Source: an archaeon
Lineage (GTDB): Archaea; Thermoproteota; Nitrososphaeria; Nitrososphaerales; UBA183
DNA length: 64,000 bases
Direction of reading: 5' to 3'
Assembly: GCA_021828185.1 (NCBI GenBank)
Contig: JAKASI010000002.1
Location: forward strand, 186,001-250,000
Shown here: one piece after another, positions 28,611 to 59,456 of the stretch
Numbering within the stretch: the first letter of the stretch is position 1
Layout of the letters: the number at the start of each line of letters is the position of its first letter
Notes under the pieces: model-generated
Database searches by the model: none
Seen by the model: the letters and a program-made list of their open reading frames with translations, nothing else
Told to the model about the DNA's origin: nothing
Made by a program: the position numbers and the translations under genes

Positions 28611-29297
28611 TCAGGCCGACCAGTCCTTGTCCCCAAGGGCGATCCTCGCGAACGCCCCTTGGCTCAGCCTCGCGGTCGCTTCCAAGAGCCCCAGGGGGAT
28701 CACCTCCGAGGCCGGCGGCCGTCCGTCCGGAGAAAGCTTGTCCAGGAACGCCAGGGCTTCCCCTGCCTCGTTCCCGTCCTTGGAGCGCACCGAATCCTGG
28801 ATCAGGCACATGGCGTGGACGGCCGCCCACACCTTGTTCGCCCCCGACGGGGTCAGGCCGCCCCTGTCCCCGGCCAGGAGGGTCCTGAGCGACTCGAAGG
28901 CGCCCTTCGCCTCTCCTGCCAGGGAGCTCTGCGTCGAATCGACCGACTCCTCGGCGCCGCCGGGAGACGCTACCTTCGCCCTGAAGAGGGCCTCCCGCGG
29001 CCTCTCCTTCAGCCCTGCCGAGAACTCCATGGCCCTGGCTCTGGCTTCGAGGAAGCTCTTCGCAGCGTCCCCCACCTGCTGGACGACCTTCGACCTCTTC
29101 GGCCCGACCAGGGTGTCCATCACCGCCTCGGCGTCCGGCCTGCCCAGCTTCACGGCCACCCCAGCGACGACCAGCTCGTCTCCGACGACCCTCGGCCTCG
29201 CCTCATCAAAGCCCGCCCTGGCCACCACTGCGTCCCGCTTCCTTACCCGCCCTTCTCTGCAGACCACCTCTATGGTCCTGGCCTCCTCGTCGACCAC
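28611..29297 (-). CDS. Tubulin-cluster helical protein, homologous to the C-terminus of the 519-residue zinc-ribbon protein
   Basis: The 228-residue protein has a short beta-rich start (RTIEVVCREGRVRKRDAVVARAG) and then helices. Residues about 130-220 (GAFESLRTLLAGDRGGLTP, MCLIQDSVRSKDG) align with GAFDEFVSSLAEEGMQP and VSAVQDAIYSHDK at the end of the 519-residue protein encoded at 41133. So this gene and the one before it together correspond to that single protein. It starts at GTG 50 bases after the zinc-ribbon gene; a non-standard start further upstream is possible since VESEGGLLV in frame looks folded. A decayed copy lies at 11.9 kb. Function unknown. Confidence 0.7.
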   Translation of the reverse strand: MVDEEARTIEVVCREGRVRKRDAVVARAGFDEARPRVVGDELVVAGVAVKLGRPDAEAVMDTLVGPKRSKVVQQVGDAAKSFLEARARAMEFSAGLKERPREALFRAKVASPGGAEESVDSTQSSLAGEAKGAFESLRTLLAGDRGGLTPSGANKVWAAVHAMCLIQDSVRSKDGNEAGEALAFLDKLSPDGRPPASEVIPLGLLEATARLSQGAFARIALGDKDWSA

Positions 29298-29346
29298 CAG
29301 GAGGCCGCCCTCGCTTTCGACCCCTGACTGCGTGACGCTCTGCGCC

Positions 29347-30393
29347 CTATAGGAACGCCTGAAGCCCCTCCACCCCCAGCCCCCCGTCCTTCTCTGCTAT
29401 CGTCTCGTACCCCTTCTTCACGTCTTTGCCCACCCCGAGCTTCTCCACGCCGGCCACGGCGATGATGTCGTACACGTCCCCCTCCCCTCTGACCAGGGAC
29501 ACCTTCCTGGATGCTATCAGGTCGCCGATCCCGTCGTTGAAGGCTCCGAATGCCCTCTCGAGCTCTCCAGCCTTCGCCCTCGGCCCCGACCCGACCAGGA
29601 GCACAGACGAGACCCCTTCCGCCCGCCCCAGCACGAGCCCCCTCAGGGCCTTCGCCGCTTCCGCCGGCGTCCTGTAGACCGCGTCGGAGGCCGAGACCAC
29701 CGCTGCCAGAAGGTGCGGGACCACGCCGAGCCTCGCATCGCTGTAGACCGAGTCCTGCAGCTGCGTGAGCGCCTCCATCAGCCCCGAAAGGGGACCGACG
29801 AAGGCCGGGTACCCGGTCACCAACCCCTCCTCCGCCCTGTAGCAGGTCATCCTGCTGACGTCCCCGCGCGGGACCACGACCATGGGGAGCCTCCTCCTTG
29901 ACGCTCCCTCCATCGCGACATAGGTGGCGTTCTGCTCCACGGGGGTCGAATCTCCGTCTGCGGCGATCCCCACAACGATCGCCCCGATGTCGGCCGGGAG
30001 CGAGGACACCAAGAGGACCGAGGTCGGGCCCGAGAGGTCCAGTACGACGAGCTTGCGGGGGGTGCCGAGGAACCCGTTCGCCCCCAGCCAACCCTTCACT
30101 TCGTCCCTGTAGGCCCTGCAGTAGTCGGGCCACGCCCCTCCGCTCAACTGCTTCAGCGAGAGCCGGTCCACCGCCTTCTCTCCCTTCGTGTCCACCTCCA
30201 ACCGGCAGCTGAACGCTCCCGGGGTCGGGAACTGGGGGAGCCCGGCGAACAGGACCGCCGTCTCTTCCAGTTCCACGTCGACCTTCGGGATCGAAGCCTG
30301 GTCCTGGACCGCCTTCTCGAAGAGCACAGGCGCGCCGCACGCCCCGCAGAAGAGCGCGAGCCCGGCAAGGTGCCCGTTGGCGCACCTAGGCAC
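29347..30393 (-). CDS. Zinc-ribbon protein of the tubulin-like cluster, short form
   Basis: The 348-residue protein begins MPRCANGHLAGLALFCGACG, a zinc site made by C4, H8, C16 and C19. The body is an alpha/beta domain that matches the 519-residue protein encoded at 41133 along its first 350 residues. Shared marks are STPVEQN/STPVAQN, ARRR/SRRR, DARLGV and SASD.V. It has no membrane helix and no signal peptide, so it should work in the cytoplasm, near the large membrane protein encoded just upstream (eight-base overlap). The family is not known to me. The helical C-terminal part of the longer paralogue is encoded by the next gene instead. Confidence 0.75.
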   Translation of the reverse strand: MPRCANGHLAGLALFCGACGAPVLFEKAVQDQASIPKVDVELEETAVLFAGLPQFPTPGAFSCRLEVDTKGEKAVDRLSLKQLSGGAWPDYCRAYRDEVKGWLGANGFLGTPRKLVVLDLSGPTSVLLVSSLPADIGAIVVGIAADGDSTPVEQNATYVAMEGASRRRLPMVVVPRGDVSRMTCYRAEEGLVTGYPAFVGPLSGLMEALTQLQDSVYSDARLGVVPHLLAAVVSASDAVYRTPAEAAKALRGLVLGRAEGVSSVLLVGSGPRAKAGELERAFGAFNDGIGDLIASRKVSLVRGEGDVYDIIAVAGVEKLGVGKDVKKGYETIAEKDGGLGVEGLQAFL

Positions 30394-32707
30394 GCTTCCG
30401 TTCCACCTCCTCGTTCAGGTCGTCGTACCTGAGGGACCTCTTTCCCGACGTGTAGAGCCTCGCGAACACCACGGAGGCCTCCGGGATGAAGGGGAGGTCA
30501 GCGAGCCTGACGCCCTTTCCCTCTCTGAGGGCCGCGTCCATGAGGCAAGAGGCCACGGGGTACTGCGAAAGGATCAGCATGCTCCTCGCGTCCTTCCGCC
30601 TCGCCTCCTCCACGGCGCCGAAGACCAGCGCCGCCTCCTCGGCGAACTCCCCCACCTCCTCCACCGACGGCTTCAGGCCCCCGGCCTTCCTGCCCACGGT
30701 GGCCACGGCCGCAGCCTGCCCGAGTATCTCGAACCTCACGATCCTCGCCGCCTCGGGTGATAATGACTTCGCCAGGTTCTGAAGCCGCTCCACCTCCTCC
30801 CCGATCCTCTCTGCCGAGTCCCGGAGGTCGCTCACCACCGCCTCGACCCGCTCCAGCGCCAGGGCGGGGGATATCCCCGTCTGGGAGAGGAGCTCCATGG
30901 CCTCCCCCACCCTCCGCCGAGGCTCGGCGTCCAGGGAACCACTGAGCTTCTCCATCCTCTTCACCAGCGCGGCCAGGGCGCCTTCCAGCTCGGGGAGCCT
31001 GACCGCCTGGAAGTTGGTCCAGTAGTCTTGCGTGACCAGCTTCATCGCCATGTGGTAGTCGTCGGTCTCGAGGACCCTCGCAGGGTCCACGGGCGGGACG
31101 ATTATCTCTCGCCCCATGAGGGCGTTGAATGCCCCGGTCACGTCCTTGTACTCCTTGAAGATGGCCTCGGTGTCCTCCTTCACCCTGGCGGCGACCCTCA
31201 GGTACGCGGAGATCGCCTGGTCCAGGTCCATCCCTGCCATCGCTTCAGGCCTCTCGTTGAACCTCCCCCTCGCCAGGGTCTCTTCCAGCATCGCGTTGTA
31301 GATCGAGGCCAGGGCGAGCAGAGAGTTGGCCTCCTCTATCATCCTCACCCTGAGGACCTCAGGCATCCTCTGCAGTTCCGGCAGGGTCACGTTCATGATC
31401 TCGTCGGTCCAGGCCCCGGTCTGCTTCACGTCCGCCGTCTCCAGCCCCTTCCTGATGTCCCCCGACTTCGACATCACCTCCTGGACCCTGTGCGCCAGCT
31501 CTCCCACGTCCAGCTTGGGGGCGTTGGTCTGCACCTTCTCCAGGGCGCCCTTGAGGACCTCGGACTGCTTCTCCATGGCCTCCAGGAGGGTCCCGAGCTC
31601 TGCCTTCATCCTCTGCAGCCTCTCGAGCCTCTGGAGGAGGAGCTCCCTCCCCGTGAACGCGCCCCCCACCAGGACCGAGCTCCCTATCAGCAGCCCGGCG
31701 TCTTCCGGCCTCGACACAAGGTCTGTCTGGTACCCCCCTATGCTCGCCGGGGACAGCGCCACTATGAGCAGCACGAACGCGACCGGGGTGGCCACTGCCG
31801 CGATGAGGGGGATGAACGCCCTGAGCCTCCTGGTAATCCTCCCCTTGGTGAGCCAGGCGAAGAGGGCGCTGGTGGCCCCGGCCAGAGACGCCGACGAGCT
31901 GAAGATTATCGAGAGGAGGATGAGCGGGACGATTATCACCGAGGCCCGCTCCCCTGTGATGAAGCCGACGAAGGCGCCCGAGTAGCTCGAAGCCGCGCCC
32001 GCCGGGAGCCCGGTCAGGAAGACGTTGAGGCTCCCCAGGGGCGGGATCTGGTTCTGCGCCACGTTCTGCAGCTGGGAGAAGATCACCGGCGGGAGCTCCA
32101 CGTTGAGCTGGACGTTGGCGTAGGCGATGGCGTTCTCTATCAGTATGAACGGCAGGAGGGCCGAGATGAAGGTGGATGCGACCGGCCCTATGCTCCTGGT
32201 CCCGCCCATCACCCCAGCGATCACTATCATGGCCACCGAGAGGTAATAGTACGGGGTGAGCATCAGCGAGACCGCCAGGAGCGCCAGCGCCATGGACACG
32301 GGCTGATGCCTGGCGACCGCGAGGTCCACTGCGATGAACAGCACGAGAAGCACGGCCACGATCGACCCGCCCGTCGACGCCAGCAGGCCGCCGAGTCCGA
32401 ACCCGAGCAGCTGCCAGAGGATCGTCAGGAACGCGAGGAGCCCCAGCACCCCTGACGCCCAGACTGGCCGGCTGAGCGAAGCCAGAGCCAGGCCGGCCGC
32501 GACCAGCACCGGCAGGAGCGGGGCCCCAGGGAGGAAGTGCACCGCGTCCAGAAACACGAACCCCGAGAGGGCGAGGACGAAGGCTGTGGTGTACCTGTCG
32601 GCCCTTTCCCTCGGGCCGGGCTTTTCTTGGCTCCCCACGTCAGCGTTCTGACTCCTCTCCTTTGAGAACTTGCGGGTCTCTGGCGGCCGGGTTGGATTCG
32701 AATGCAT
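30386..32707 (-). CDS. Large polytopic membrane protein with long cytoplasmic helical domain, copy A
   Basis: The protein has 773 residues from the ATG at 32707. After a charged, hydrophilic tail come about ten membrane helices (residues about 40-350), then over 400 residues of mostly helical, heptad-like sequence, for example RLERLQRMKAELGTLLEAMEKQSEVL, and a final part ILSQYPVASCLMDAALREGK. It is a paralogue along its whole length of the 750-residue protein encoded at 38888: shared marks are LTPYYYLS/LTPEYFLS, LLIENA, LNVFLTGLP and the closing domain. An ATG 60 bases further upstream is an alternative start. It may be the membrane receptor for the tubulin-like filament system. Unknown family. 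Confidence 0.75.
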   Translation of the reverse strand: MHSNPTRPPETRKFSKERSQNADVGSQEKPGPRERADRYTTAFVLALSGFVFLDAVHFLPGAPLLPVLVAAGLALASLSRPVWASGVLGLLAFLTILWQLLGFGLGGLLASTGGSIVAVLLVLFIAVDLAVARHQPVSMALALLAVSLMLTPYYYLSVAMIVIAGVMGGTRSIGPVASTFISALLPFILIENAIAYANVQLNVELPPVIFSQLQNVAQNQIPPLGSLNVFLTGLPAGAASSYSGAFVGFITGERASVIIVPLILLSIIFSSSASLAGATSALFAWLTKGRITRRLRAFIPLIAAVATPVAFVLLIVALSPASIGGYQTDLVSRPEDAGLLIGSSVLVGGAFTGRELLLQRLERLQRMKAELGTLLEAMEKQSEVLKGALEKVQTNAPKLDVGELAHRVQEVMSKSGDIRKGLETADVKQTGAWTDEIMNVTLPELQRMPEVLRVRMIEEANSLLALASIYNAMLEETLARGRFNERPEAMAGMDLDQAISAYLRVAARVKEDTEAIFKEYKDVTGAFNALMGREIIVPPVDPARVLETDDYHMAMKLVTQDYWTNFQAVRLPELEGALAALVKRMEKLSGSLDAEPRRRVGEAMELLSQTGISPALALERVEAVVSDLRDSAERIGEEVERLQNLAKSLSPEAARIVRFEILGQAAAVATVGRKAGGLKPSVEEVGEFAEEAALVFGAVEEARRKDARSMLILSQYPVASCLMDAALREGKGVRLADLPFIPEASVVFARLYTSGKRSLRYDDLNEEVERKRA

Positions 32708-32979
32708 GGCCGACCGCCTCGAGCGTCGCTCTTTGGCGCAGAGACCCGGGTGGCCATGGGGGCCCATTGGCAGCTAGGGTTGATTGGCGGACGACGGCGA
32801 AACGTCTGAGAGCGGCAGGAGCTCGTCAGCGGTCAGCCGCCTAGCGATTCTGAATCTTCCTGGCTTGCCTCTGTGTGTGAAAGAGGCAGGCGGCGACGTG
32901 ATGAAGATAGGGAGTCCAAGGGCCCATCTGGGCACGAGCATGTTTCGCGTCTAGGCCCGTGGGTCCACCGACGGAAATT
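32708..32979. other. Interval between the leftward cluster and a toxin-antitoxin pair
   Basis: No convincing gene. A TGCCTCT-N10-AGAGGCA inverted repeat lies around 32865-32888 and could form a hairpin. No clear TATA box for the leftward cluster was found, which leaves its start of transcription open. Confidence 0.35.
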
Positions 32980-33000
32980 CCCATAATTGATAAATATGGG
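32980..33000 (+). promoter_or_regulatory. Operator-promoter of the second AbrB/PIN pair
   Basis: CCCATA (32980-32985) and TATGGG (32995-33000) are a perfect inverted repeat around and into the TATA box GATAAATA (32989-32996). The box is about 28 bases before the ATG at 33021. The design is the same as upstream of the HicB gene and the first AbrB gene. Confidence 0.6.
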
Positions 33001-33020
33001 CAAGTCACTGAATCACGGGA

Positions 33021-33254
33021 ATGTCGATAGTCGAGATAGACGAAAGGGGAAGGGTCACGATCCCGAAGGAGATGAGGGTCGAGGCCGAGAGGGCCCTCGT
33101 CATCCCGATGGGGGAGACCTACATGGTGGTGCCGATACCGGTCGCGCCGGCCAAGTTGGACCTGAAGGTCAGCGGGAAGTCCGCCAAGGAGGTCGCGGAG
33201 AGGCGCCTCTCTTCCGAGGTCAGAAAGCGCTCCCAGAGACGGCAGAACAGATGA
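33021..33254 (+). CDS. AbrB/SpoVT-type antitoxin
   Basis: The 77-residue protein begins SIVEIDERGRVTIPKEMRVEAE, the AbrB DNA-binding hairpin, then a strand-rich part and a basic tail (RRLSSEVRKRSQRR). It should repress its own promoter through the dyad at 32980-33000 and bind the PIN toxin. Its TGA overlaps the toxin's ATG (ATGA). Confidence 0.88.
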   Translation: MSIVEIDERGRVTIPKEMRVEAERALVIPMGETYMVVPIPVAPAKLDLKVSGKSAKEVAERRLSSEVRKRSQRRQNR

Positions 33255-33670
33255 TCATCGAGTCTGACCTCTTCGTCGCCCACTCCAAAGAAGCCGACTG
33301 GCTCAAGCCCTTCGCCGACCCGCTTTTCGCGAAGTTGAATCAGGGCGCCCTGTCCGCCTCAACATCGGCTGCTGTCCTCATCGAACTCTACTATGTTCTA
33401 GAAGACTTCGGCCTCGACAGGTCGGCGATACTGGGCAAGCAGGCCGAGATTGCAGCCATGAGGGGGTTGACGATCCTTCCCCTGACTTCGGAGGTCCTGC
33501 TCGCCGCGCAGTCCATCATGAAGACGTTCCGGCTCCCCGGCCTGTTCGACGGCCTCTACGCCGCAGCGACCCTGAACCAAGACAAGGACAAGACCATCCT
33601 GTCCACCGATGACGTCTACGAAAGGGTCCCCGGCATTAAGAGGATAGACCCGAGGGAGTTCAAGCCGTAA
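33251..33670 (+). CDS. VapC-like PIN-domain toxin
   Basis: The 139-residue protein has IIESDLFVAHSKEADWL (D6), AAVLIELYYVLEDFG, GLFDGLYAAATLNQ and ILSTDDVYERVPGI, the four acidic positions of VapC RNases. I start it at the ATG that overlaps the antitoxin's stop; a much longer in-frame reading upstream overlaps the antitoxin and is shadow. The pair sits in the gap between the two blocks of the tubulin-like cluster. Confidence 0.88.
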   Translation: MIIESDLFVAHSKEADWLKPFADPLFAKLNQGALSASTSAAVLIELYYVLEDFGLDRSAILGKQAEIAAMRGLTILPLTSEVLLAAQSIMKTFRLPGLFDGLYAAATLNQDKDKTILSTDDVYERVPGIKRIDPREFKP

Positions 33671-34057: not shown

Positions 34058-35164
34058 TTGAGCCAGAATCGGCCGAAGAAGTCGAAGAACAGGCGCGCCC
34101 ACCCTGTGAACCACAAGGCCCACCCGAAGAGCCCCGCAAGGAAGCAGGCGCCGAAGAAGAGCGCGAGAAGGAGCCCGACCAGGGTCGAGCGGCTCCTCCA
34201 GCCCAAGTTCTACTCCATCAAGGGCAAGCTCTCCGAACTCGACGGCGGATACGCCTCGTTGGGCGCCAGAGTCTCGGGACTGGACGACCGGGTCACCAGC
34301 ACGGCCGATGCCCTCGGTGCAGCCATTTCGAAGTTCCAGGGCGAGCTCGCCGACAAGATAAGCGGCCTGGACCAGAAGATCGACGCTCTCGCCTCCGAGT
34401 CGAAGACCAGAGCCGACGGCATAGAGCAGAGGCTCGCTTCCGAGGAGCAGTCGGCCTCGAAGGGGGCCTCGGACCTCGGGCAGAGGGTCTCCGACCTAGA
34501 GCAGTCCGTCCCGCCCCAGCTCAAAGACCTCCAGCAGGCGGTCTCGTCCATGGAGGACTCGCTTCCATCTCATGTGTCCGATGTGGACAAGAGGCTCACC
34601 TCTCTCGAAGGGGCCTACCCGAACGAGCTATCGTCCATCCGGCAGAAGATCTCTTCGGTCGAAGGCGGCCTTTCCACTCAGCTCTCCGCACTGCAGCAGA
34701 AGCTTTCCGCGTCGGACGCGAAGTGGGGGGCGGAATTCGGGCGCCTGGAAAAGAGGGTGAACTCGCTCTTCGACAGCTCCGGCATGGCCAGCCAGAAGCT
34801 GACGAGCCTGGAGGGTTCTCTCGGCGCACTGAAGGCGCGCGTCGACTCCGCGACCTCAGAACTTACTTCCTCTGTGACCAAGGCCACGGAGAAGCTGAAC
34901 GCCCTGGAGGGGAGGATCAAGACGGAGGTGGACGGGATCTCGCGTGACCTCCGCTCGGTCGAGCAGACCATGAAGGCAGACCTGGGGAACGACTCGCAGA
35001 GGGTCGCCTCCCTCGGGGACAAGGTCGAGACCATCGACGCCAGCGTCAAGGACAGGATGGGGAAGGTGGAGACCCAGGTCGCCGAGGTCAGAGAGGAGCT
35101 GAAGGACGCCCTCAGGTCTGTGCTTAGGTCCAGCGTCGCAGAGCCCAGGGTAACATCGCCCTGA
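34058..35164 (+). CDS. Long coiled-coil protein with basic N-terminus
   Basis: The 368-residue protein starts at TTG. The first 45 residues are strongly basic (KKSKNRR, KQAPKKSARRSPTR). After VERLLQPKFYSIKGKLSEL the rest is an almost unbroken heptad pattern with few charged clusters, many S, L, K and E, and repeating units such as VSDLEQSV, LTSLEGAY, ISSVEGGL and LTSLEGSL. No signal peptide or membrane helix. It may be a filament-like or spacer protein; the basic tail could bind nucleic acid or acidic lipid. It ends 118 bases before the next gene, which has its own promoter. Confidence 0.8.
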   Translation: MSQNRPKKSKNRRAHPVNHKAHPKSPARKQAPKKSARRSPTRVERLLQPKFYSIKGKLSELDGGYASLGARVSGLDDRVTSTADALGAAISKFQGELADKISGLDQKIDALASESKTRADGIEQRLASEEQSASKGASDLGQRVSDLEQSVPPQLKDLQQAVSSMEDSLPSHVSDVDKRLTSLEGAYPNELSSIRQKISSVEGGLSTQLSALQQKLSASDAKWGAEFGRLEKRVNSLFDSSGMASQKLTSLEGSLGALKARVDSATSELTSSVTKATEKLNALEGRIKTEVDGISRDLRSVEQTMKADLGNDSQRVASLGDKVETIDASVKDRMGKVETQVAEVREELKDALRSVLRSSVAEPRVTSP

Positions 35165-35250
35165 TCCCTGTCGCAGGTCCCGGCGCATGACCAATGTCCG
35201 AGGATAGATAGGGAATACTTATCATGTGCACAGATTTTTACCTCTCTCAC

Positions 35251-35260
35251 CTTTTAAAAG
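35251..35260 (+). promoter_or_regulatory. TATA box that fixes the start of the secreted-domain protein
   Basis: CTTTTAAAAG, centred 27-28 bases before GTG 35283. Leaderless transcription from here makes GTG 35283 the start rather than the upstream GTG at 35226. Confidence 0.6.
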
Positions 35261-35282
35261 AGAAGTTCAGAGGCGTGCAACA

Positions 35283-36233
35283 GTGAGAGTGGATATGAGG
35301 GCCGGCTCAGCAGTGATTATTGCCCTGCTCCTGACAGTGTCATTTGTAGGCGCCGGGGCCGCCTCCGCCCAGACGAGCAACTGGGTGAGCGTCGTCTCGG
35401 TCAGGGACCTGACAGGTGGCCAGACGCTGACTCCTCTGGCTCCGCTCGTGGCCGGCCATACCTACAACACGACGATTAGAATCGATGTCCCGGTGGGCAC
35501 CACCGGAGCGACCTTCAGGGTCGCGCTAAACTCCAAGGTTGACGCGAACGGCTCCCAGTTCTGGTACCTGGAGACCCCAAGCTATGCGGGGTACAACCGT
35601 TCGACCTTCACCAGCTCCCTGAGGACTGTCCAGTTCAACTGGATCCAGGGGACCCTGGAGCTTTCGGCCATCTACAGGATCCCGCTCAACCTCACCACGG
35701 TCGCGACCAACGGCCTGACCCTGCACCTCACCCAGGGAGACTTCGGCCTCATCTTGGTGACCGTCAGCGGAGGGGGCGCAGGCGGGGTGACAGCGGTCGT
35801 CGAGGACCAGTCCATCCAGACGTACCTGAACGAGTACCATACCGCCTCCGGCCTGATCTCTTCGGGGCAGGTGAGCTCGTCCTACACATCCCTGCTGAAC
35901 GGGGTCCTGAATCTGTCGCAGACCCTGTACAAGGCGGGGCTGACAGACCAGGCGACGGCCCTTCTCGGGGACGTCTCGCCGAGCGTCCTCCCGGTGCCCC
36001 CCAGCTCGTCCAACTACTTCTACCTCGTTGTGGCTGTCATACTGGTCGCAGTGGTGGCGGCCCTGTTCGCCGTCGGGTACATCAGAGGGAGGGGCAAGTC
36101 AGGCTATGCCTCCGCGGTGATCAACGAGACGAACCGGGAGCTGGCCTCGTTCGAAGTCGTCGCCAGCAGGTACGACAGGAACCTGGCCGACCAGCTGAAG
36201 AAGCTGAGGGACAAGCTTACGGAGGCGTCCTAG
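35283..36233 (+). CDS. Signal-peptide protein with extracellular beta domain and C-terminal membrane anchor
   Basis: The 316-residue protein has a clear signal peptide (MRAGSAVIIALLLTVSF, cut likely after ASA). A beta-rich outer domain follows (residues about 30-240, with many S/T/N-x-S/T sites), then a membrane helix LVVAVILVAVVAALFAVGYI and a cytoplasmic tail of about 50 residues rich in charges (NRELASFEVVASRYDRNLA). It is a type I layout: outside sensor or adhesion domain, inside tail. Its stop is followed at once by the TTG of the tubulin-like gene, so the two proteins are probably made together and may meet through the tail. Confidence 0.75.
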   Translation: MRVDMRAGSAVIIALLLTVSFVGAGAASAQTSNWVSVVSVRDLTGGQTLTPLAPLVAGHTYNTTIRIDVPVGTTGATFRVALNSKVDANGSQFWYLETPSYAGYNRSTFTSSLRTVQFNWIQGTLELSAIYRIPLNLTTVATNGLTLHLTQGDFGLILVTVSGGGAGGVTAVVEDQSIQTYLNEYHTASGLISSGQVSSSYTSLLNGVLNLSQTLYKAGLTDQATALLGDVSPSVLPVPPSSSNYFYLVVAVILVAVVAALFAVGYIRGRGKSGYASAVINETNRELASFEVVASRYDRNLADQLKKLRDKLTEAS

Positions 36234-38873
36234 TTGAGCAGCAGGACCTATTCGAGCGTCCACCTCATCGGGCTCGGGGGGACGGGGACCAACATCATCC
36301 AGTCCCTGGTGGAGAGCGACAGGCTCTCGAGGCTCCTCCCATCGGAGGACTTCCACCTCGCGTGCCTTGCCCTTGACGTGGCCGACGGCGACCTGGCCTC
36401 CCTGGACTCGGCGGTGAAGAAGAGGACGACCCAGCTCCAGAAGAGCGGGGTGTCGGTCGACAGGCTCTGGGTCAAGGGGCTCAACGTGAAGTTCAACTCC
36501 CCTGACGCCCTCTTCGAGTTCATGGAGCGCTACAACACCTACCTCATGAAGGAGGGGGTCGTTGTCAACAGCTACAAGCCCTGGATAAGCTCGTCCATGT
36601 CCATCCCCCCGCTCGCCGGAGGGGTCGGGAGGATGCGCGCCCTCAGCAAGGCGGTCTACGACCTGAACTACTACCACTACATGGAGCTGAACAACGTCCT
36701 GTCGGTCTTCAAGGACAGGGTGCTGTCATCCAAGTTCCAGCCCATAGTCGTCCTGGTCTTCGGGCTCGGAGGGGGGACCGGGAGCGGCATGGTCTTCGAC
36801 TTCGCGCGGCACCTCAGGAAGAAGCTCGGCACCTCGGTCCCGATCGTGGGGGTGGCGGTCCTCCCGTCCACAGCTGACGACCTCCTCGCCCGCGGCCCTG
36901 CGCCGTACACGTCCCTGATGGAGGCGGAGCTCATGTTCAACAGAGGGCTCAACGAGTCGGTCGTCGAGAAGTTCGGGGAGGCGTACAGGAACCCGTTCAC
37001 GTCCCTCTTCTTCCTCGCCCTGGACCCGGTCTACAACAACAAGAACAGCCTGCTGTCGGCGAGGCAGGAGCTGGACGAGGCGCTCATAGACGTCCTCTAC
37101 ACCTTCATGAACTTCGACCTGGCCGACCTGCTGAGCAGGGTCGGAACCAACAACGACTTCGGCCCCAACTGGGTCCACGCCATGGCCTACCTGAGGATAA
37201 GATATCCCGTCCACGACTACGTCTCCTACCTCCACAAGTACCTGCTGCACACGGAGAACGTGGGGAACTTCATGGCCTCCAAGCGGGAGGCGGTGACGAG
37301 GATCAACGGGTTCCTGGCCAACAGGATGGAGCACCTGAAGGTGCTCTTCAGGGACAGCCTCACCCGCATGAACATCTACAGGCCGGACACCTTCGAGACA
37401 GAGGTGGAGGACGTCGTCAACAGGGCCGGCAAGTACGAGGTTGAGCTGAGGAAGCAGATCAAGGGGCTCTCCGACTTCGCGCTCTACTACAACGGGAAGT
37501 GGGAGCGGGTCCTCAAGGCCATGGACTTCGACGAGGACACCGTGGAGAACGGGATCGTCCAGCTCCTGATGCAGTGGGAGGTGCAGATCAACCAGCTCCC
37601 GAAGACCTACGAGGAGTTCCAGAGGGGGCTCCCCAGCGCCGTCGCCGAGCTCGAGGAGAGCATGACCGCTGCCAAGCTCCTCACGGCCACCCAGGTCCGC
37701 CAGGTGCGCGCCTACCTCAACTTCGTCCAGCTCGTGAACGACGCCCTCGAGACCCTGAAGCTCTACATCCGGGCCAAGGCCCTGGCAGACAACGTGGCCA
37801 TCAGGTACGCCAAGGACGCCAGCGTGGAAGGGAAGAGGGCCGCGGCCCTGGGGGAGGCGGAGATAGTCCCCCTCTTCAAGGCGGCTGGGTACGTGATGAG
37901 CAAGCCGGAGATCGAGGCCAAGGCCTCGGACCAGTACATCCCCGGCATACGGGTGATCAAGAAGAGCGTCGAGGACCGCTTCAAGGACTCGTCCTCCGAG
38001 GCGGAGTCCTTCGAGAGGCTCCTGGCCCAGAAGGAGACCGAGGTCTCCAGGCTGAAGAAGGAGATGGACAAGGTGAAGGTGGACTTCTCAGGGAAGAAGA
38101 AGCTCATGATGAAGAACTACGAGTCCCTCGAGACCGAGGCGACCGCCATCCGCACCAGGCTCGACCAGCTGAGGGAGGCTAACAAGACCTTCTCCAAGGA
38201 GCTGGAGATGGTGAAGGAGCTGGAGAAGGGGCTCGAGCTCACGTCCCAGTACAGGAAGATACTGAACACCGTCGCCGCCCAGACGACGGACCTGAACGAG
38301 GCCATGAGCAGGATGACCACCACCGGGAGCTACTACGAGCGGGTGGTGGAGCTCAGCCAGAGCGAGCAGACCAAGATACTGGGGAAGATACTCACCGAGC
38401 AGGAGGAGAGCCTGAAGGGGGAGGAGATTCTCAAGGAGATCCTCGACAGGGACCGGTTCAAGAGCCTGGTGAAGAGCTACCTGCGGGTCTTCGGGCTCCC
38501 TAACTACTGCGGCCTGGCCGACACCTACAGGACCGACATGATCTGGACCACAGTGGGGATACCTCCGGGGCTCTGGGACCAGGACCTCCAGGGGACCCTG
38601 TCCAGCGTCCTCAACTCCTACTCGAGCGTCGAGGCGAGCAAGAGCATCTCCATCCGCCAGACCCCGCAGCTCGACCCCTGGACCATAACCTTCCTCGTGG
38701 TCCTGGCGAAGGCGAACGTCGACCAGATCGAGAGCTTCTCGTCCATGAAGAACGACGCGGACGCGGTCAGGAAGTCGGAGAAGTCGCTATTCAGGAGCCT
38801 CCTCCTCGAGCAGGGGTACAAAGTGATCGACGACCTCGTCGCCGCCGTCGAGGGCGGGAAGCAGTCGAAGTAG
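36234..38873 (+). CDS. Tubulin/FtsZ-superfamily GTPase with long coiled-coil extension
   Basis: The 879-residue protein begins VHLIGLGGTGTNIIQSL (residues 9-25), the first nucleotide-binding loop of tubulin-like proteins. It has the defining tubulin signature GGGTGSG at residues 179-185, preceded by VVLVFGL. VPIVGVAVLPS and a helical part with ARQELDEALIDVLYTF follow. After about residue 370 comes a long helical region with coiled coil (AQKETEVSRLKKEMDKVKVDF, near 600-700), then a compact C-terminal part. Ordinary FtsZ or CetZ is about 350-400 residues; the size and motifs point to the Tubulin_2/FtsZl-like group, which is reported beside membrane proteins. It should bind GTP and polymerise. 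It is cytoplasmic, starts at TTG directly after the previous stop, and is followed after 14 bases by a large membrane protein gene. Confidence 0.88.
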   Translation: MSSRTYSSVHLIGLGGTGTNIIQSLVESDRLSRLLPSEDFHLACLALDVADGDLASLDSAVKKRTTQLQKSGVSVDRLWVKGLNVKFNSPDALFEFMERYNTYLMKEGVVVNSYKPWISSSMSIPPLAGGVGRMRALSKAVYDLNYYHYMELNNVLSVFKDRVLSSKFQPIVVLVFGLGGGTGSGMVFDFARHLRKKLGTSVPIVGVAVLPSTADDLLARGPAPYTSLMEAELMFNRGLNESVVEKFGEAYRNPFTSLFFLALDPVYNNKNSLLSARQELDEALIDVLYTFMNFDLADLLSRVGTNNDFGPNWVHAMAYLRIRYPVHDYVSYLHKYLLHTENVGNFMASKREAVTRINGFLANRMEHLKVLFRDSLTRMNIYRPDTFETEVEDVVNRAGKYEVELRKQIKGLSDFALYYNGKWERVLKAMDFDEDTVENGIVQLLMQWEVQINQLPKTYEEFQRGLPSAVAELEESMTAAKLLTATQVRQVRAYLNFVQLVNDALETLKLYIRAKALADNVAIRYAKDASVEGKRAAALGEAEIVPLFKAAGYVMSKPEIEAKASDQYIPGIRVIKKSVEDRFKDSSSEAESFERLLAQKETEVSRLKKEMDKVKVDFSGKKKLMMKNYESLETEATAIRTRLDQLREANKTFSKELEMVKELEKGLELTSQYRKILNTVAAQTTDLNEAMSRMTTTGSYYERVVELSQSEQTKILGKILTEQEESLKGEEILKEILDRDRFKSLVKSYLRVFGLPNYCGLADTYRTDMIWTTVGIPPGLWDQDLQGTLSSVLNSYSSVEASKSISIRQTPQLDPWTITFLVVLAKANVDQIESFSSMKNDADAVRKSEKSLFRSLLLEQGYKVIDDLVAAVEGGKQSK

Positions 38874-38887
38874 AGGTCCAAGGCTCC

Positions 38888-41140
38888 TTGGCAGAGTCCC
38901 CCAGGGAGGTGCTCGCGAGGCGGATAGACAGGTACCTCAACCCCGTCCTCACCGCGGTCTGCTCCTTCTTCTTCCTCCTGCTCGTCCCCATGATGCCCGG
39001 CTCCCCGGTCCTCCCCCTCCTGGTGGCTGCGGCGCTCGGGCTCTACTCCGTCCGTTCCTCCAGGAGGGCGTCCTATGTCTTCTACCTCTTCGTCTTCGCT
39101 TCGATTGTGTGGCAGTTCCTGGGGTTCGGCCTGCAGTCCCTCCTCTCCACCCCCCTCGGCCTGCTGGCCTCGTTCCTGCTACTGGTCCCGCTGGCGATGA
39201 ACGCGGCGAACCCGAGGATGTCTCCGTCCTCCCTGGCGCTGACCTTCCTCGCAGTGGCCCTGATGCTCACCCCGGAGTACTTCCTTTCAATCCCGCTCAT
39301 AGCCGCTGCAGTCGCCCTCGACGGCCTCGGGAGCGTTGCCACAACAGTCGTGACCTTCATCCTGACCCTCGCCCCCTTCCTCCTCATAGAGAACGCCCTC
39401 TTCTACGGGACCCTCGCAGCCGGGGCCACGGCTCCCCCCATCGTCTTCGGGGAGCTCGCCCACCTGGCAGCGAACATGCGCCCTCCCCTCCAGGGGCTCA
39501 ACGTGTTCCTCACCGGGCTCCCCCAGGACTTCGTCTCCCCCCAGAGCGCCCAGGTGGTGTCCTTCCTGACCGGGGAGGCCTACCTCATGCTCGTCCCCGT
39601 AGCCGTATTCGCGGTGATCTTCGGGGCGTCGGCCTCCATGGCGGGGGTCCTCACGAAGGTTAAGGACAAGCTGACCGCCTTCGCAAGGCTGTCGAAGGTC
39701 CTCAGGACGGTCTGGCCCGTGGTAGTCACAGTCACCATGACCGCGGTCTTCTCGGTCCTGCTCGTCCTCCTCTCGTCCGGGAGCGTGGGCGGGTATCAGA
39801 TCGCGCTCGGGGTCGACCCCCTCATCGCGGTGGGGGCGATGGTCGCCGGGGCCCTGGTGATGGGGACGGCCCTCTCCGCGAGGGTGTACCTTGACGAAGG
39901 GCTCACGGCCGCGACCACCTCCAGGGAAAGGCTGTCTGCCGTCCTTGCAGAGTCCAAGAAGCTCCTGGAGGAGATCAGGAAGGTCTCGGAGAAGGTGGAC
40001 GCGGTCGCCCCCTCCGTGGGGCTGCGGGTGGAGGAGGGCCTCGTCGATCAGTACTCCTCGTACCTCTCCGACGTCGAGAGGCAGATGGACACGGCCGGGG
40101 CCGTGGCCATGAACACCTGGGAAGGCGAAATCCAGGTCCGGATCCTCCCCACCCTGAAGAGCCTCCCGGACCAGATCAGGGTCAAGGTGGTCAACGAAGT
40201 GAGCTCTGTAACCTCCCTGGCCGAGTCCCTCAACGGGACATTGGAGCACCTCGGGATAGCCACCCGGTTCCCCACCGCGGGAGACCAGGTGACCGCCATG
40301 GACACCGAGCAGGCCCTGGAGGCCTACGCCCAGTTCACAGGCAAGCTGAAGTCGACCGTCGCCGAGCTCTACGGGTTCTACCTCGAGGCCGCGAAGGCCC
40401 TCGACAAGCTCCTGGACAAGACGGTCTCGGAACCCCCGGTCAACCCGAGCGTCCTCCTCAGCACCAGCGACTACGTCACCGCCATGAGGCTCCTCGGTGA
40501 GGAGTACAGCATGAACCTGAACGCCCAGTTCTCCGAGGACTTGAAGCAGAAGCTCTCGGACGTGCGCGGGAGGCTGCGCCGGATGTCCGAGGCGCTCGGA
40601 GACGAGGGGAAGGGGGTCGAGGGGTACATGGACCTGGGGAGCCCGAACCCGCTGGAGTCCCCGCAGATCCTGAAGAAGGTGGAGGCCCTGATCGCCTACC
40701 TGCAGTCGGAGGCAGGGCGGGCCGTCGACGAATCGGTGAGGCTCGGCAGCATGATCGGGACTATGATGCCGGCAGCGACCACGGTCCTGAAGTTCGCGAC
40801 CCTGGCCGAGCTGGAGAGCCTGAGAGAGCTCAGGCATGAGTCGAAGGCGCTGGGACCGAGCCTGGAGGGGCTGTCGCAGTTCGTGGGGAAGGCCACCAAG
40901 GTCCTCGTGATCCACAGCGAGTCCCGCAAGAAGGACGAAGAAAACATGATCATAGTTGCCCAGTACCCGCTGGCGCGCAGGCTCATCCACGGCCTCGCCT
41001 CCAGGAGGCAGGTCATCTCCCTCCGGGAGCTCCCGTTCCAGCCGGACGCCACGCACTTCTACGCGAAGATCTACGCAGCCCAAGAGCCCGCGGCGAGGTA
41101 TGACGAGCAGGGCGAGGCCCTCCTGATCGCCCATGCCTAG
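38888..41140 (+). CDS. Large polytopic membrane protein with long cytoplasmic helical domain, copy B
   Basis: The 750-residue protein starts at TTG with a short charged tail, then about ten membrane helices (residues 18-340) and over 400 residues of helices with heptad character (SRERLSAVLAESKKLLEEIRKVSEKVDAV). It closes with ENMIIVAQYPLARRLIHGLASRRQVISLRELPFQPDA. It is a full-length paralogue of the protein encoded at 30386-32707. The gene overlaps the next by eight bases. The inside domain is well placed to meet the tubulin-like protein; no transport or enzyme motif is seen. Confidence 0.8.
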   Translation: MAESPREVLARRIDRYLNPVLTAVCSFFFLLLVPMMPGSPVLPLLVAAALGLYSVRSSRRASYVFYLFVFASIVWQFLGFGLQSLLSTPLGLLASFLLLVPLAMNAANPRMSPSSLALTFLAVALMLTPEYFLSIPLIAAAVALDGLGSVATTVVTFILTLAPFLLIENALFYGTLAAGATAPPIVFGELAHLAANMRPPLQGLNVFLTGLPQDFVSPQSAQVVSFLTGEAYLMLVPVAVFAVIFGASASMAGVLTKVKDKLTAFARLSKVLRTVWPVVVTVTMTAVFSVLLVLLSSGSVGGYQIALGVDPLIAVGAMVAGALVMGTALSARVYLDEGLTAATTSRERLSAVLAESKKLLEEIRKVSEKVDAVAPSVGLRVEEGLVDQYSSYLSDVERQMDTAGAVAMNTWEGEIQVRILPTLKSLPDQIRVKVVNEVSSVTSLAESLNGTLEHLGIATRFPTAGDQVTAMDTEQALEAYAQFTGKLKSTVAELYGFYLEAAKALDKLLDKTVSEPPVNPSVLLSTSDYVTAMRLLGEEYSMNLNAQFSEDLKQKLSDVRGRLRRMSEALGDEGKGVEGYMDLGSPNPLESPQILKKVEALIAYLQSEAGRAVDESVRLGSMIGTMMPAATTVLKFATLAELESLRELRHESKALGPSLEGLSQFVGKATKVLVIHSESRKKDEENMIIVAQYPLARRLIHGLASRRQVISLRELPFQPDATHFYAKIYAAQEPAARYDEQGEALLIAHA

Positions 41141-42692
41141 GTGCGCCAGGGGGCACGAGGCCGGGCTCGCCTACAGGTGCCCGACGTGCGGGGCCGACGT
41201 CTTCTTCAGGGAGAGCCTCCCGGACCTCCTGAAGCTCCCCTCCCCCAACCTGAAGCTCGAGGACGTCGCGGTCCTCTTCGTCGGCCAGGCGCCCTTCGAC
41301 ATACCAGGGGTGTACACAGCCGAGGCCATCCTCGGCAAAGGGAAGCCCACGTCGAAGCAGTTCATAGCCGAGAGGCTCGAAGGGGGGACCTGGCTCGACT
41401 ACAACTCCAGGTACTCGGAGCAGTTCAAGAGGTGGCTGAGGCTGGTCGGGTTCGGGAAGTCGAAGCACAGGGTCCTCGTACTGGACACCACCTACCCCCT
41501 GGCGGTCCTGGCGGTGAACAACGTCCCCCTCCCGGACAACACCGTGGTCATGGCGTCGGTCCCCGGGGCCAAGTCGACCCCGGTGGCGCAGAACTCCAGC
41601 TACGCGACCCTCCAGCTCGCGAGGAGGAGGGGGATGCACGTCGTGCTCGCCCTGGACTCGTTCATCGCCGGGCTCGCAGCGTTCACAGAGGGGAAGGGCT
41701 TGGCCACCGGGGACAGCGCCTACGAGCAGGCGATAGCCTACATCCTCTCGTTCGTCTCGGACCTGGCCGACCTGACCCAGAAGGACGCCAGGCTCGGGGT
41801 GGGGGCCCACTTCTTCTCCATCCTCCTCTCCGCCTCGGACCGGGTCTTCAAGAGCGTCGAGAGCGCCCTCGAAGTCCAGCTGACGCAGACCTCCCTGGAA
41901 GGGGCTCCCGAGAAGGTAATCACCGCCCACCTGTTCGCCACCGGCCCCTCTGACAGGCAGGACGAGCTGCGCGCCTCCTTCGAGCGCATGTCGTCCGGGG
42001 ACCACTGGAACCTCCTTAACGCCGAGTCGACTGTGAGGTCCATGCCCTCCTCCCACGGGCTCTACGACGTCTTCCTCCTCTACGGGGTGAAGGAGCCCAC
42101 TGTGCTGGACGCGCTGAGGGCCGGCTACCAGACCGTCGCCTCGACAGCGCCGGAGCTGAGCCTTGAAGGTGGGCTGTCTCCTTCTCCCGAGCCCCCGCAA
42201 GAAACCGCCATGGAGGTGGAGGAGGAAGGAGAGGAGAGGGACGCGAAGGCGGCGCCGAAGCAGCTCCTGCTGATGGAAGACTTCGTCATGGCGAGGGGGG
42301 AGATGGTCGGCCTCCTGCTCCAGATGAGGGGCGACGTGAGGGAGGCGGTGCTCCGCTACCAGGCGGAGGTCCCCCATGACAAGGACCCGGTCGAGGGGCT
42401 GCTCGCAACCTACGGCGACTGGCTGAACGGGGCCTTCGACGAGTTCGTTTCATCGCTCGCGGAGGAAGGGATGCAGCCGGCGGCGATCCAGAAGCTCTGC
42501 GCCGTCGCCTACTACGTCTCTGCTGTGCAGGACGCGATCTACTCCCATGACAAGGAAGGGAAGGCGAGGGCCGAGAAGGCTCTCCAGGATGTCAAGGTCC
42601 AGCACAAGGACCTCGAGGGGCTCAGCCTGGTGGCGGCCACGGACGCGCTGCTCCGGGCAGCCGAGCCCCTTTTCATCGCCGCGAAGGCCTGA
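41133..42692 (+). CDS. Zinc-ribbon protein of the tubulin-like cluster, long form
   Basis: The 519-residue protein begins MPRCARGHEAGLAYRCPTCG with the zinc site C4, H8, C16, C19. An alpha/beta domain of about 330 residues follows, then an acidic linker (EVEEEGEERDAKA) and a helical C-terminal domain (residues about 375-519). The first two parts match the 348-residue protein at 29347, the last part the 228-residue protein at 28611. No membrane helix. Conserved positions between the copies (STPVxQN, DARLGV, SASDxV, the zinc ligands) show what matters to the fold. It is the last gene of the rightward block and ends in front of a convergent gene. Confidence 0.78.
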   Translation: MPRCARGHEAGLAYRCPTCGADVFFRESLPDLLKLPSPNLKLEDVAVLFVGQAPFDIPGVYTAEAILGKGKPTSKQFIAERLEGGTWLDYNSRYSEQFKRWLRLVGFGKSKHRVLVLDTTYPLAVLAVNNVPLPDNTVVMASVPGAKSTPVAQNSSYATLQLARRRGMHVVLALDSFIAGLAAFTEGKGLATGDSAYEQAIAYILSFVSDLADLTQKDARLGVGAHFFSILLSASDRVFKSVESALEVQLTQTSLEGAPEKVITAHLFATGPSDRQDELRASFERMSSGDHWNLLNAESTVRSMPSSHGLYDVFLLYGVKEPTVLDALRAGYQTVASTAPELSLEGGLSPSPEPPQETAMEVEEEGEERDAKAAPKQLLLMEDFVMARGEMVGLLLQMRGDVREAVLRYQAEVPHDKDPVEGLLATYGDWLNGAFDEFVSSLAEEGMQPAAIQKLCAVAYYVSAVQDAIYSHDKEGKARAEKALQDVKVQHKDLEGLSLVAATDALLRAAEPLFIAAKA

Positions 42693-46306: not shown

Positions 46307-49300
46307 TTGAATACGCTTTCGAATGCGTATGTAACGAAATTTAGCTCAGGACTAATGCTGGCACTTCTGGCGGTCTCAGGGCTCCTCGTCCTGGTGCCGC
46401 TGGCAGCGCCAACCTTTGCAGCACAGAACGCAGCCTCACCAACATACACGGCAACACCCAACGTGGTAGTCGGAGGGTCGGCTACAGCCTTCTCTGTGAA
46501 GGTAGCCAACCCATCGACGAACGCTTATGCGATCAGTTCGGTCACCTTCACGGTACCGAACAGCAACTGGGCCTTCAGTAGCCCGCCAGCAACTTGCGCA
46601 ACGGGATGGGCGATCACTCCCTCCGCTTCGGCGATTCAGTGCTCGGGTGGCAGCTTGTCACCTGGGTTCTCTGTCACCTTCAGCCTGGGATCTTTGACTG
46701 GCCCTACCGTTGCTGCCACATCTCCGCCCAATGTGGGCACCTTCACAACCTCAGTGGTTGACGGCGGTTCTTCACCTGCGGCCTACGCAGGTTCGACCTT
46801 CAAGGTCACTTCCATCGCCACTACGACCGTCGCAGTGGCCCTATCGACCCCCACCACCTACGTGGCTGGGAGCACACCCGAGACTGTCACCGTGACTCTA
46901 AGCTCCGGGCAGGCGGGCGTGCCGATAGTGTTGACCGCACCTGGTTACCCGTCCACAGCGACCTACAGCTTCTCGCCATCGTCTGGTTCGTCTGGTGCCT
47001 CTGGCACTCTGACGAGCACCTTCCAGCCGAGCAACGCGGAGGGCAACAACAGCATCGTGACGGCGACCATCGGCACGTCAGGCACAGCCGGTTCATCCGG
47101 ACTGCTGACCACCGCGCCCGCGGCACCGTCCACTGTGACCTTCCACTATGCTGCTGCTCTGGCGAGCAACGGCAACGACTACTCTACCACCACGGCATCC
47201 ACGGCCTCTACCCCACCCGCGGCCATCTCTGGTGACGCGGAGTTCCCAGGGTCTGGGATACTCTTCTCACTGTCCGACAAGTTCTCCAACGCCATCGCAC
47301 TCAACACCGCGGGCCTCACAGCCTACACCATCACCCTGACGGCCCTCTCGGGCGGCGGGTTCTTCGACGCTTCCTACGCGGGAGCATTGGCCCATCCGTC
47401 CGTGATTGCCTGCAGCGTATCCGGTTCCGGTGCAACAATCGGCAACTGGAACTCGTCGGGGACGGTCCTAACGTCGCCGGCCACAACCGCATGCGCGAGT
47501 GGCGGCGGCAGTTCGGGTCAATACGCTCTCCCGTTCAACTACTTCCAGAGCGGCATCTACGGCACCATTGGTAAGCTCGGTGCAACGCTCACCGGGACGT
47601 ACTCCAGCGGTGCGTTCAGCGGCTCAGGGAGCAGCGCCAACCTGGTGACCTCGACCTTCTCAACTTCATCCCCGACCCCATCGGTCGCAGTCCCAACGGG
47701 TGCGACCTACACGCTTGCAGCCGTCCCGGCTGGCACCAGCGTCACGGTCTCGGCGACCCTGGGTACCCCACAAGCGGGGGTCCCGGTGACGCTGTACCTT
47801 GACCGCGCGACCAGCTTCGAGACGGCCCCGGGCGCCAAGGACTACTCGACGACAGCGGCCTTCACCAACGGAGCTCAGGCGATAACGCTGGCAAGCGCAA
47901 CAGGGACAGGCTCACTGGGCCTCGGCGTAGTGTCCAGCACATTCGCTGTCGACACTCTGGCTATGGCGAACGCCTTCTTCCTGACGGCGGTGGCGCAGCC
48001 GACGAACACGAACCCGGCGGCCTTCCTCGCCAACAGCAGTGACTCCGCGACAGCGGCGGTCACGGTCGCAGGCCCAGCGGCCTCGTTCGTGATCACGGGC
48101 TGCCTCGTCGCGACGTCCACACCATCCACTTGCAGCGCGGCCAACACGCTCGGCACCAAGATAGTCAACGGGTCGACCGCATACATCGACGTCTCCGTGG
48201 CTGACGCCTACGGAAACGCGGCGACTAACCCCGGGCCGAACCAGTTCCAGATCACCCTCTCGGCTCCTGGTAGCGTCCTAAGCGCCACCACGGCCTACAT
48301 CACCTCAGGCAACCCTGACACCTACACAGGCACAGGCTGGGTCGCTTGGACGCTCCCGGCCACCATCGGGACGAGCATAACGCTCTCCGCGACGGGCGTG
48401 CTGAACGGCCAGGTAGCCTCCGCAACGTTCAAAGTCACGACAGTAAGCGGAACACCCACCTTCGCCATCACCTCGCCGGCACCGCTCAACGGTGTCATCT
48501 ACAGCTCGTCTACCGCGGTGGTCTTCAGCGGCCAGGCCAACGCCTCGGTCGGCTACCCCGCCACGGTGACCATCAACTCCATCGGGTACAAGGTCGACTC
48601 GGGCACCTGGCAGTCTGGAGTGGTCTCAGCCGCCAACAAGGTGATATTCAGCCTGGCCGCCTCCATGACGGTAGGGCTGCACACTGTCACCTTCAACGCG
48701 ACTGACTCGAATGGCAACACCTTCGTCAGCTCCACCTTCACGGTCCTCGTCGACACCACTGCCCCGACGGTCAAGTTCGTCACTGCCAACAACGCCAACC
48801 TCACCAACGGCGCCGCAGTCATGGCTCAGGTCAACGACACCTTCGGCGACCTGAACGCGACGAGCGTCGTGGCGACCGCCACCAACATAGACACCGCGGC
48901 TACGGCGACACCCACGGTCAGCATAACCGGGTCCAACAACCCAGGCCATGCTGTCTCGTACAGCGTATCGATCTCCGGCCTCACCTCTGGCAACTGGAGC
49001 ATCCTACTCACCGCAGCCGACCTGGCAGGGAACACAGTCACGTCTTCGGCTCTGACCGTCCACGTGAGCGTGCCTCTTGGCCAGTCCTTCGTGGTCGTAG
49101 GGACGCCGACAAAGGCGACCCTCGCCGGCTACTCCGGTGTCAACGCCACGTACACCAACCTCAACCCAACCAGCGAGTCTGTGGTAGTCTTCGCAGTCTG
49201 GAAGACCGGCGCAGTACCAGTCGGGGTCAGCGCGGGCAGCGCGACGGTGGGAGCTGGGGCGACCCAGTCCATCTTCGTCCCTGCACCGATCGGCCTCCCC

Positions 49301-49387: not shown

Positions 49388-49399
49388 CCAGGTGGCACC

Positions 49400-58765: not shown

Positions 58766-58766
58766 A

Positions 58767-59456
58767 GTGAGGGAGATTCGGATCGCCCCTTCGATCCTCG
58801 CCTGGGACCTGGGGGACCTGGAGAAGGCGGTGGAGATCTCGGTGAACGGCGGAGCCGACCAGGTGCACCTGGACGTGATCGACGGCCACTTCGCCCCCAA
58901 CATCACCTTCGGGCCCGGGACGGTGAAGGCGCTCAGGCGCCGGACCGACCTAAAGTTCGACACTCACCTGATGATCGAAGACCCGCAGAAGTACGCCGAG
59001 AAGTTCCTCGAGGCAGGGTCAGACCTTCTCAGCGTGCACGCGGAGGTGATGAACGGGGCCCGCTTCGACGACTTCCACCGGCTGGTGCATTCGCGCGGCA
59101 AGGAGGTCGGGCTCGCCATCAAGCCCCAGACCCAGCTCCCGAAGTGGGCCTCTGACCGCCTCGACAGAATCTCGACCCTCGTCGTGATGACAGTCAACCC
59201 CGGCTTCAGCGGCCAGACGATGGACATGTCAGTCATGCCCAAGCTCCAGAAGGTGAGCGAGCTGGTCGAGGACAAGGGAGTCGGGACGGACATAGAAATA
59301 GACGGAGGGGTGGAACCGGAGAACGTGCAGGAAGTGGTCAAGAGGGGCGGGAACGTCCTCGTGGCAGGAGCCGGGGTCTACGCCAAGAAGGACCCTGTGA
59401 GTGCGATAGCGGCCCTTAGGGAGAAGGCCGAAAGCGCAAGGAGGCCCAGACCATGA
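58767..59456 (+). CDS. rpe: Ribulose-phosphate 3-epimerase
   Basis: The 229-residue TIM-barrel enzyme has IAPSILAWDLGDLEKAVE, QVHLDVIDGHFAPNITFGP (metal His and Asp), FDTHLMIEDP, VMTVNPGFSGQ and IEIDGGVEPENV. It interconverts ribulose-5- and xylulose-5-phosphate. It lies between the two transketolase subunit genes, with GTG one base after the first and a four-base overlap with the second, which leaves no doubt about the pathway. Confidence 0.92.
   Translation: MREIRIAPSILAWDLGDLEKAVEISVNGGADQVHLDVIDGHFAPNITFGPGTVKALRRRTDLKFDTHLMIEDPQKYAEKFLEAGSDLLSVHAEVMNGARFDDFHRLVHSRGKEVGLAIKPQTQLPKWASDRLDRISTLVVMTVNPGFSGQTMDMSVMPKLQKVSELVEDKGVGTDIEIDGGVEPENVQEVVKRGGNVLVAGAGVYAKKDPVSAIAALREKAESARRPRP

Follow-up and report, generated by a model that had tools for sequence, protein, structure and literature searches.

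What does a tubulin-superfamily GTPase do in an archaeon when its gene lies among genes for membrane proteins? The question was raised by a run of genes at positions 34058-42692 of a 64,000-nucleotide stretch of archaeal DNA (the window), which encoded the tubulin-like protein tub, the membrane proteins sp and mem, the zinc-ribbon protein zr and the coiled-coil protein cc. The original prediction had seen here an undescribed five-part filament system linked to the membrane. Our analysis bore out three elements of that interpretation, a tubulin core, a link to the membrane and a conserved neighbourhood, whereas the word 'undescribed' and the membership of cc were not supported. The module was read as a membrane-tethered filament system of the tubulin superfamily, belonging to archaea of the Nitrososphaerota/Thermoproteota kind and having zr as a pseudo-tubulin partner; the chances of this reading were judged to be about even.

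The locus and its tubulin-family GTPase

The five open reading frames (ORFs) were located as predicted, all on the plus strand.

34058-35164, plus strand: cc, coiled-coil protein of 368 residues (ORF; absent from the set elsewhere)
35226-36233, plus strand: sp, with signal peptide, outer domain, one transmembrane (TM) helix and short inner tail (hydropathy, alignment A5)
36234-38873, plus strand: tub, FtsZl1/Tubulin_2 GTPase of 879 residues (Pfam, motifs, model)
38888-41140, plus strand: mem, with a polytopic membrane domain (~8 TM helices) and an inner helical domain of ~400 residues (hydropathy, alignment A4)
41133-42692, plus strand: zr, with a zinc ribbon, a predicted tubulin-fold domain without GTP motifs and a C-terminal helical domain

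The tight spacing claimed for the run was measured as 0 bases between sp and tub, 14 between tub and mem, and -8 between mem and zr. The G+C content at third codon positions (GC3) was high and of coding type (0.82-0.95) in all five ORFs and in a mirror module upstream, and three long opposite-strand ORFs tested by GC3 comparison showed a shadow pattern.

The tubulin-type profile expected for tub was found with Pfam Tubulin_2 (PF13809), which matched residues 11-213 through profile positions 2-208 of 356, above its curated cut-off (E 1.2e-13; 51.5 bits against 27). Tubulin PF00091 fell slightly below its cut-off (31.7 bits against 33), and the cell-division FtsZ model TIGR00065 far below (16.9 against 295.2). 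The two predicted motifs were present, GLGGTGTN at residues 13-20 and GGGTGSG at residues 179-185. Conservation was assessed in alignment A1, for which 38 sequences were taken from a listing of 120 out of 452 tub proteins found.

36270-36293, plus strand: T1 loop GLGGTGTN (motif in 38/38 sequences of A1)
36768-36788, plus strand: T4 loop GGGTGSG (class GG[GA][TS]G[TSG]G in 38/38)
37113-37127, plus strand: FDxxD, residues 294-298, putative T7-like loop (38/38)
37209-38528, plus strand: predicted helical/coiled-coil insertion within the tubulin fold, residues ~326-765 (model)
38529-38843, plus strand: C-terminal part, residues ~766-870, predicted to complete the tubulin C-terminal domain (model, structural alignment)

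The FDxxD motif was located between model helices 273-292 and 296-303, and its position and sequence suggest a T7-like loop. Judged by these profiles and motifs, tub is a member of the FtsZl1/Tubulin_2 family with conserved GTP and T7-like motifs.

The AlphaFold model of tub (mean pLDDT 87.6) matched CetZ, FtsZ and TubZ, and so contained the tubulin GTPase core anticipated for it. The best structural match was CetZ, in a VIA-align match list that leaves other families possible; the alignment ran from residue 7 to 847 and took in 323 of the 330 CetZ1 residues. Helices were modelled over residues 326-694, and C-terminal strands at residues 770-775, 805-810 and 817-827. Residues 324-700 held 1 of the 62 invariant columns of A1, with a mean conservation of 0.45-0.50, against 0.61-0.68 for residues 701-860. 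The model suggests a tubulin fold split by a long helical insertion.

Among the matches listed, one close homologue 86% identical to tub was labelled Nitrososphaerota archaeon, and the window was accordingly assigned to an archaeon of the Nitrososphaerota type; proteins labelled Dehalococcoidia carried tub at 34-35%, and Sulfolobus tengchongensis also appeared among the tub carriers. The loci of two relatives were those of "archaeon isolate FK4.bin31" (L001, 86% tub identity) and a Nitrososphaerales metagenome-assembled genome (L002, 61%). The tub relative of genome G021 had 960 residues (L044 8408-11290), and that of G331 lay in two frames of 417 and 454 residues on a 2.35-Mb contig (L047 8514-11170), through either a sequencing error or a real split.

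The family was published in 2010 as FtsZl1 (Makarova and Koonin, PMC2875224) and suggested there to form the centre of complexes that remodel membranes, so the system was not undescribed in this respect. That paper notes a divergent member in Sulfolobus solfataricus and neighbours that are often vWA, protein kinase, GTPase or OmpA proteins, which are not needed for membership; no Pfam match to these four was found in the eight module proteins. Like FtsZl1, tub has an N-terminal tubulin GTPase domain with GGGTG(S/T)G followed by a long coiled coil and a helical C-terminal region, and membrane proteins as neighbours. In that paper, the T6-H7 region of FtsZl1 was not confidently identified and no similarity of its C-terminal domain to tubulins was seen, whereas tub has an identifiable T7-like FDxxD, a C-terminal part predicted to complete the fold, and zr, a protein of predicted tubulin fold without the motifs, beside it. 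FtsZL1 was reported in two Sulfolobales representatives (2022 Culexarchaeia paper, PMC9723716), and Tubulin_2 was set aside as divergent in a 2023 FtsZ/tubulin study (PMC9871819).

A second protein of predicted tubulin fold

The protein zr had been recognised as a zinc-ribbon protein, and CxxGH...CxxCG was indeed present; its predicted tubulin fold had been missed. A GTPase-type domain, a core helix and a C-terminal domain were all found in the predicted structure.

41259-42185, plus strand: predicted tubulin-fold domain, residues 43-351 (range of structural matches)
42258-42686, plus strand: C-terminal helical domain (weak relation to the small stand-alone ORF that follows zr in L002)

The predicted folds of both tub and zr were those of CetZ, FtsZ, TubZ and OdinTubulin, from which tub differs by its helical insertion of ~440 residues and zr by the loss of the GTP motifs. 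The signature GG[G/A][T/S]G[S/T/G]G was found in 0 of 19 sequences of alignment A2 (18 of the 20 zr proteins found, plus the paralogue zr2a) and 0 of 20 of A3 (20 of 21 zr members, the partial L040 omitted), and FDxxD was not found in zr. Because the GTP signature is missing, zr is called a tubulin-fold protein or pseudo-tubulin, not a tubulin GTPase; its model suggests a tubulin fold without GTP motifs. A vWA-like identity, that of the usual FtsZl1 partner, was rejected for zr, with no Pfam support and a predicted tubulin fold.

Sequence searches with zr returned little. A protein search with a wide zr profile gave 22 close relatives only; nothing significant came from the comparison of the A1 and A2 profiles or from a search of Protein Data Bank sequences with the A2 profile (best E 1.1). 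At E<=1, PF00091 matched 12 of 20 zr proteins, the best at 21.2 bits, below the cut-off of 33. One subgroup, here WDG-type, was tied to the window-type zr by iterative profile search, by hhalign (81%) and by gene position.

BtubAB and AtubAB pairs are nucleotide-binding tubulins. The module resembles bacterial BtubAB and Asgard AtubAB (PMC13394414) in encoding two tubulin-fold proteins together, and differs in that one partner lacks the GTP signature and that membrane proteins belong to the set. Neither the sp-mem-zr set nor a motif-less tubulin beside FtsZl1 was found among the papers listed by the literature searches, which were without preprints and most subscription journals. These two features appear to be new; the FtsZl1 family and the membrane-remodelling proposal were already known.

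Conservation of the gene set, host cells and a mirror module

An even sample of 398 genomes of the phylum of G002 was queried with tub and with mem, zr and sp profiles. Strong matches were obtained for tub in 21 genomes, zr in 20, mem in 19 and sp in 19, and every genome with a strong zr, mem or sp fell within the 21 with tub. The neighbourhoods were read in all 21, several of them cut by contig ends (L002, L035-L054; L060, L061). The sp gene directly preceded tub in 19 genomes. The order and strand of the window, sp-tub-mem-zr, were seen in five genomes; in 12 others zr was placed between tub and mem and read from the other strand. In G168, zr followed tub at the contig end, which cut zr short, and mem was missing; in G287, sp was missing and the contig ended inside tub. 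In G132, zr and mem were neighbours on a contig separate from that of tub; in G338, zr stood at an end of tub's contig after intervening ORFs, and mem at an end of a different one.

The gene set was constant across the loci read, and the neighbours of tub did not change freely. The predicted five-part neighbourhood was kept across diverged genomes with one part removed: a search of 21 neighbourhood loci, several ended by contig edges, gave no cc homologue, and cc was rejected as a core part. The conserved set was sp, tub, mem and zr, with a small fifth gene resembling zr2b in some loci. The Pfam matches of cc looked like generic coiled coil among the 25 of 73 matches listed, and its match to the mem family (E 1e-28 in a set of ~300 proteins) was judged coiled-coil noise.

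Weak matches (E<=0.001) were excluded from these counts and concerned 9 of 30 genomes for tub, 8 of 27 for mem, 14 of 34 for zr and 3 of 22 for sp. Weak tub matches included FtsZ-type ORFs of 359-368 residues (L030-L032, L034), and the weak mem matches were short and lay in the inner helical region. Twelve of the 14 weak zr matches were in frames of 320-333 residues; of four retrieved, the two scanned both matched PF00091. Three weak tub matches, whose frames span 980-1060 residues (G090:C1, G274:C1 and G361:C32; L026, L033 and L029), may represent more distant FtsZl1 members. Four ORFs of 316 residues from the same phylum (L055-L058) were FtsZ-like, were matched by the zr profile and had NLAGK[A/T]GSA instead of GGGTGSG; both of the two scanned matched PF00091.

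Hydrophobic segments in sp and mem agreed with the predicted membrane link. In sp they covered residues ~30-48 and 265-283, with a weaker stretch at 174-192. The polytopic nature of mem was upheld, and the ten helices ascribed to it are approximate, since a rough Kyte-Doolittle count gave eight. Alignment A5 comprised 19 of 20 sp members (the partial L042 omitted), and A4 comprised 17 of 19 mem members and the L001 copy (the partial L048 and L054 omitted).

Of the 22 genomes with tub (the 21 and G001), 20 had an ESCRT-III (Snf7) match with E<=0.001, 14 of them over the cut-off; in the control, Sulfolobus acidocaldarius, the Snf7 match was likewise only below it. A PF00091 ORF above the cut-off that was neither tub nor zr occurred in five genomes (G001, G002, G342, G233 and G330). 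Two further PF00091 ORFs, in frames of 348 and 486 residues, were observed on contigs C71 and C7 of G001, a close relative of the window. No other tubulin/FtsZ ORF above the Pfam cut-off was found in 17 of the 22 assemblies, a provisional count as their completeness was not stated. Because most tub assemblies show no other PF00091 ORF, a role solely as a helper of FtsZ appears unlikely from gene content.

A divergent mirror module without its own tub, missed in the original prediction, was located upstream of the main operon at 28611-32767.

30386-32767, minus strand: mem2, diverged paralogue of mem (33% over 741 residues, E 1.6e-119)
29347-30393, minus strand: zr2a, a diverged zinc-ribbon paralogue covering zr residues 1-346 (31% over 347 residues, E 1.7e-54)
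28611-29297, minus strand: zr2b, small partner (weak similarity to the ORFs that follow zr in two further loci)

A second mem copy was unseen in G001 (1.4 Mb) and G002, where the mem2 search gave one mem-type match each. A further small ORF followed zr in four loci of window-like order (L002, L035, L036 and L047); L037 ended there. In a six-sequence BLASTP comparison, zr2b matched the ORFs of L047 (E 1.3e-4) and L002 (E 0.002), with no match to those of L035 and L036, which matched only each other. The C-terminus of zr matched the L002 ORF (16169-16975) with 26% identity over 101 residues (E 3e-5) in the six-sequence comparison, and zr2b in a separate one (E 0.017). Because the L002 and L047 ORFs weakly resemble zr2b or the C-terminal domain of zr, the small partner gene may be fused to zr in the window.

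Other genes of the window were noted. A PIN-domain ORF (32987-33670) separated the mirror module from the main operon. A protein of 1026 residues, with an N-terminal hydrophobic stretch and Ser/Thr-rich by eye, was followed by a protein of 244 residues with hydrophobic stretches at both ends (46307-50134), a pair which we take to be S-layer-like. Two glycosyltransferases, one GT-C AftD-like and one of group 1, were encoded at 7879-11726, perhaps as surface glycan genes, and a transketolase was encoded as two separate halves (57944-60394) adjoining a PfkB-type kinase at 56907.

Possible functions and their weight

In the proposed mechanism, tub would bind GTP and form GTP-driven protofilaments, in which its T7-like acids would drive hydrolysis in the neighbouring subunit and its long helical arm would project to space or cross-link filaments. 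The zr protein, having kept the fold and lost GTP binding, would enter the filament as a partner that does not hydrolyse GTP, or as a cap or nucleator. The outer domain, TM helix and inner tail of sp, together with the polytopic mem and its inner helical domain, would anchor the filament at the membrane and link it to the shape of the membrane or to a cue from outside; the output could be shape, vesicle formation, envelope growth or signalling. We infer that tub may polymerise, contact zr and be recruited to the membrane, and that its role may concern not division but shape, remodelling or signalling.

Several observations weigh against this mechanism. A conflict or transport role suits the membrane and coiled-coil parts equally well, and in G021, one of the 21 genomes, tub stood alone without partners. 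The nesting of zr within the tub genomes gave a naive hypergeometric value of 8e-33, which overstates independence because of shared ancestry and of profiles built from tub's own neighbours. The window's own zr gave no PF00091 match, and window-type zr no sequence match to FtsZ or tub. With hhalign, WDG-type zr scored 0.5% against canonical FtsZ alone and 34% against a pooled FtsZ set, the subgroup having been picked after the alignment was seen; all zr pooled scored 0.4-6.8%. The sequence link to tubulins came mostly from WDG-type members, whose identity to the window's zr in A3 was 11-15%, and the fold prediction only from the window type. The alignments behind the models were shallow (38 sequences for tub, 19 for zr), and the models came without predicted aligned error. 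A Snf7 match below the cut-off, located ~10 kb from tub on one contig of G198, fits a division role.

The best surviving alternative places zr outside the regular lattice, where it would cap the ends of tub filaments, nucleate them or inhibit their assembly in the manner of gamma-tubulin or MciZ. The loss of the GTP signature and FDxxD from a predicted fold that was kept agrees with this, as does the opposite-strand position of zr in 12 of 20 zr genomes, which suggests a separate dosage. In the window, however, tub and zr point the same way within a single operon-like run, and we consider such a role possible but on balance unlikely.

It is less probable that the module is a signalling or conflict system, with tub and zr as assembly-competent sensors or effectors triggered via the membrane proteins and no shaping of membranes. 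Bacterial conflict loci combine one or two tubulin-coiled-coil proteins with membrane and vWA proteins (Kaur et al. 2020, PMC7159879), a composition similar to that found here, and the set is patchy. However, no convincing vWA, non-tubulin GTPase, FNIII or HSP70 domain was found in the eight module proteins scanned, the gene set was constant, and PADLOC matches (seven proteins scanned) were confined to helical or coiled-coil stretches. Anti-phage defence was rejected on the same PADLOC result, and a viral origin was rejected after a viral_contigs scan gave a single short match (L064), a stretch of 65 residues about the T4 loop that matched at 38%.

A cell-division accessory system beside ESCRT-III is improbable. 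The frequency of Snf7 matches among the tub genomes and the G198 neighbourhood agree with it, but 377 of the 398 genomes lacked a strong tub, and many of these presumably divide by ESCRT-III. That zr resembles tubulins only as a generic Rossmann-like match, without kinship, is very improbable, even though window-type zr has no sequence match to them.

The membrane-tethered filament system has a wider form, which we put forward tentatively, as somewhat doubtful: that archaea with ESCRT-III, many of them without canonical FtsZ in the assemblies examined, keep a membrane-bound cytomotive system in which an active tubulin with a long inserted arm and a pseudo-tubulin without GTP binding form an obligate unlike pair, coupled to the outside by sp and mem. 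Since 2010 FtsZl1 has counted among the most diverged tubulin families, and no surface for polymerisation was clear in it; a split fold, as predicted, and an FDxxD motif without variation suggest an ability to polymerise and point to residues for mutation. With a pseudo-tubulin conserved beside tub, the question of how dissimilar tubulins come to be paired in lineages other than alpha/beta can be put to a natural test. In the 17 assemblies with no other tubulin or FtsZ above the cut-off, the set may be the only tubulin-based structure. If the reading is true, it would be a third way of building a tubulin polymer, beside alpha/beta-type pairs and single-subunit FtsZ/CetZ.
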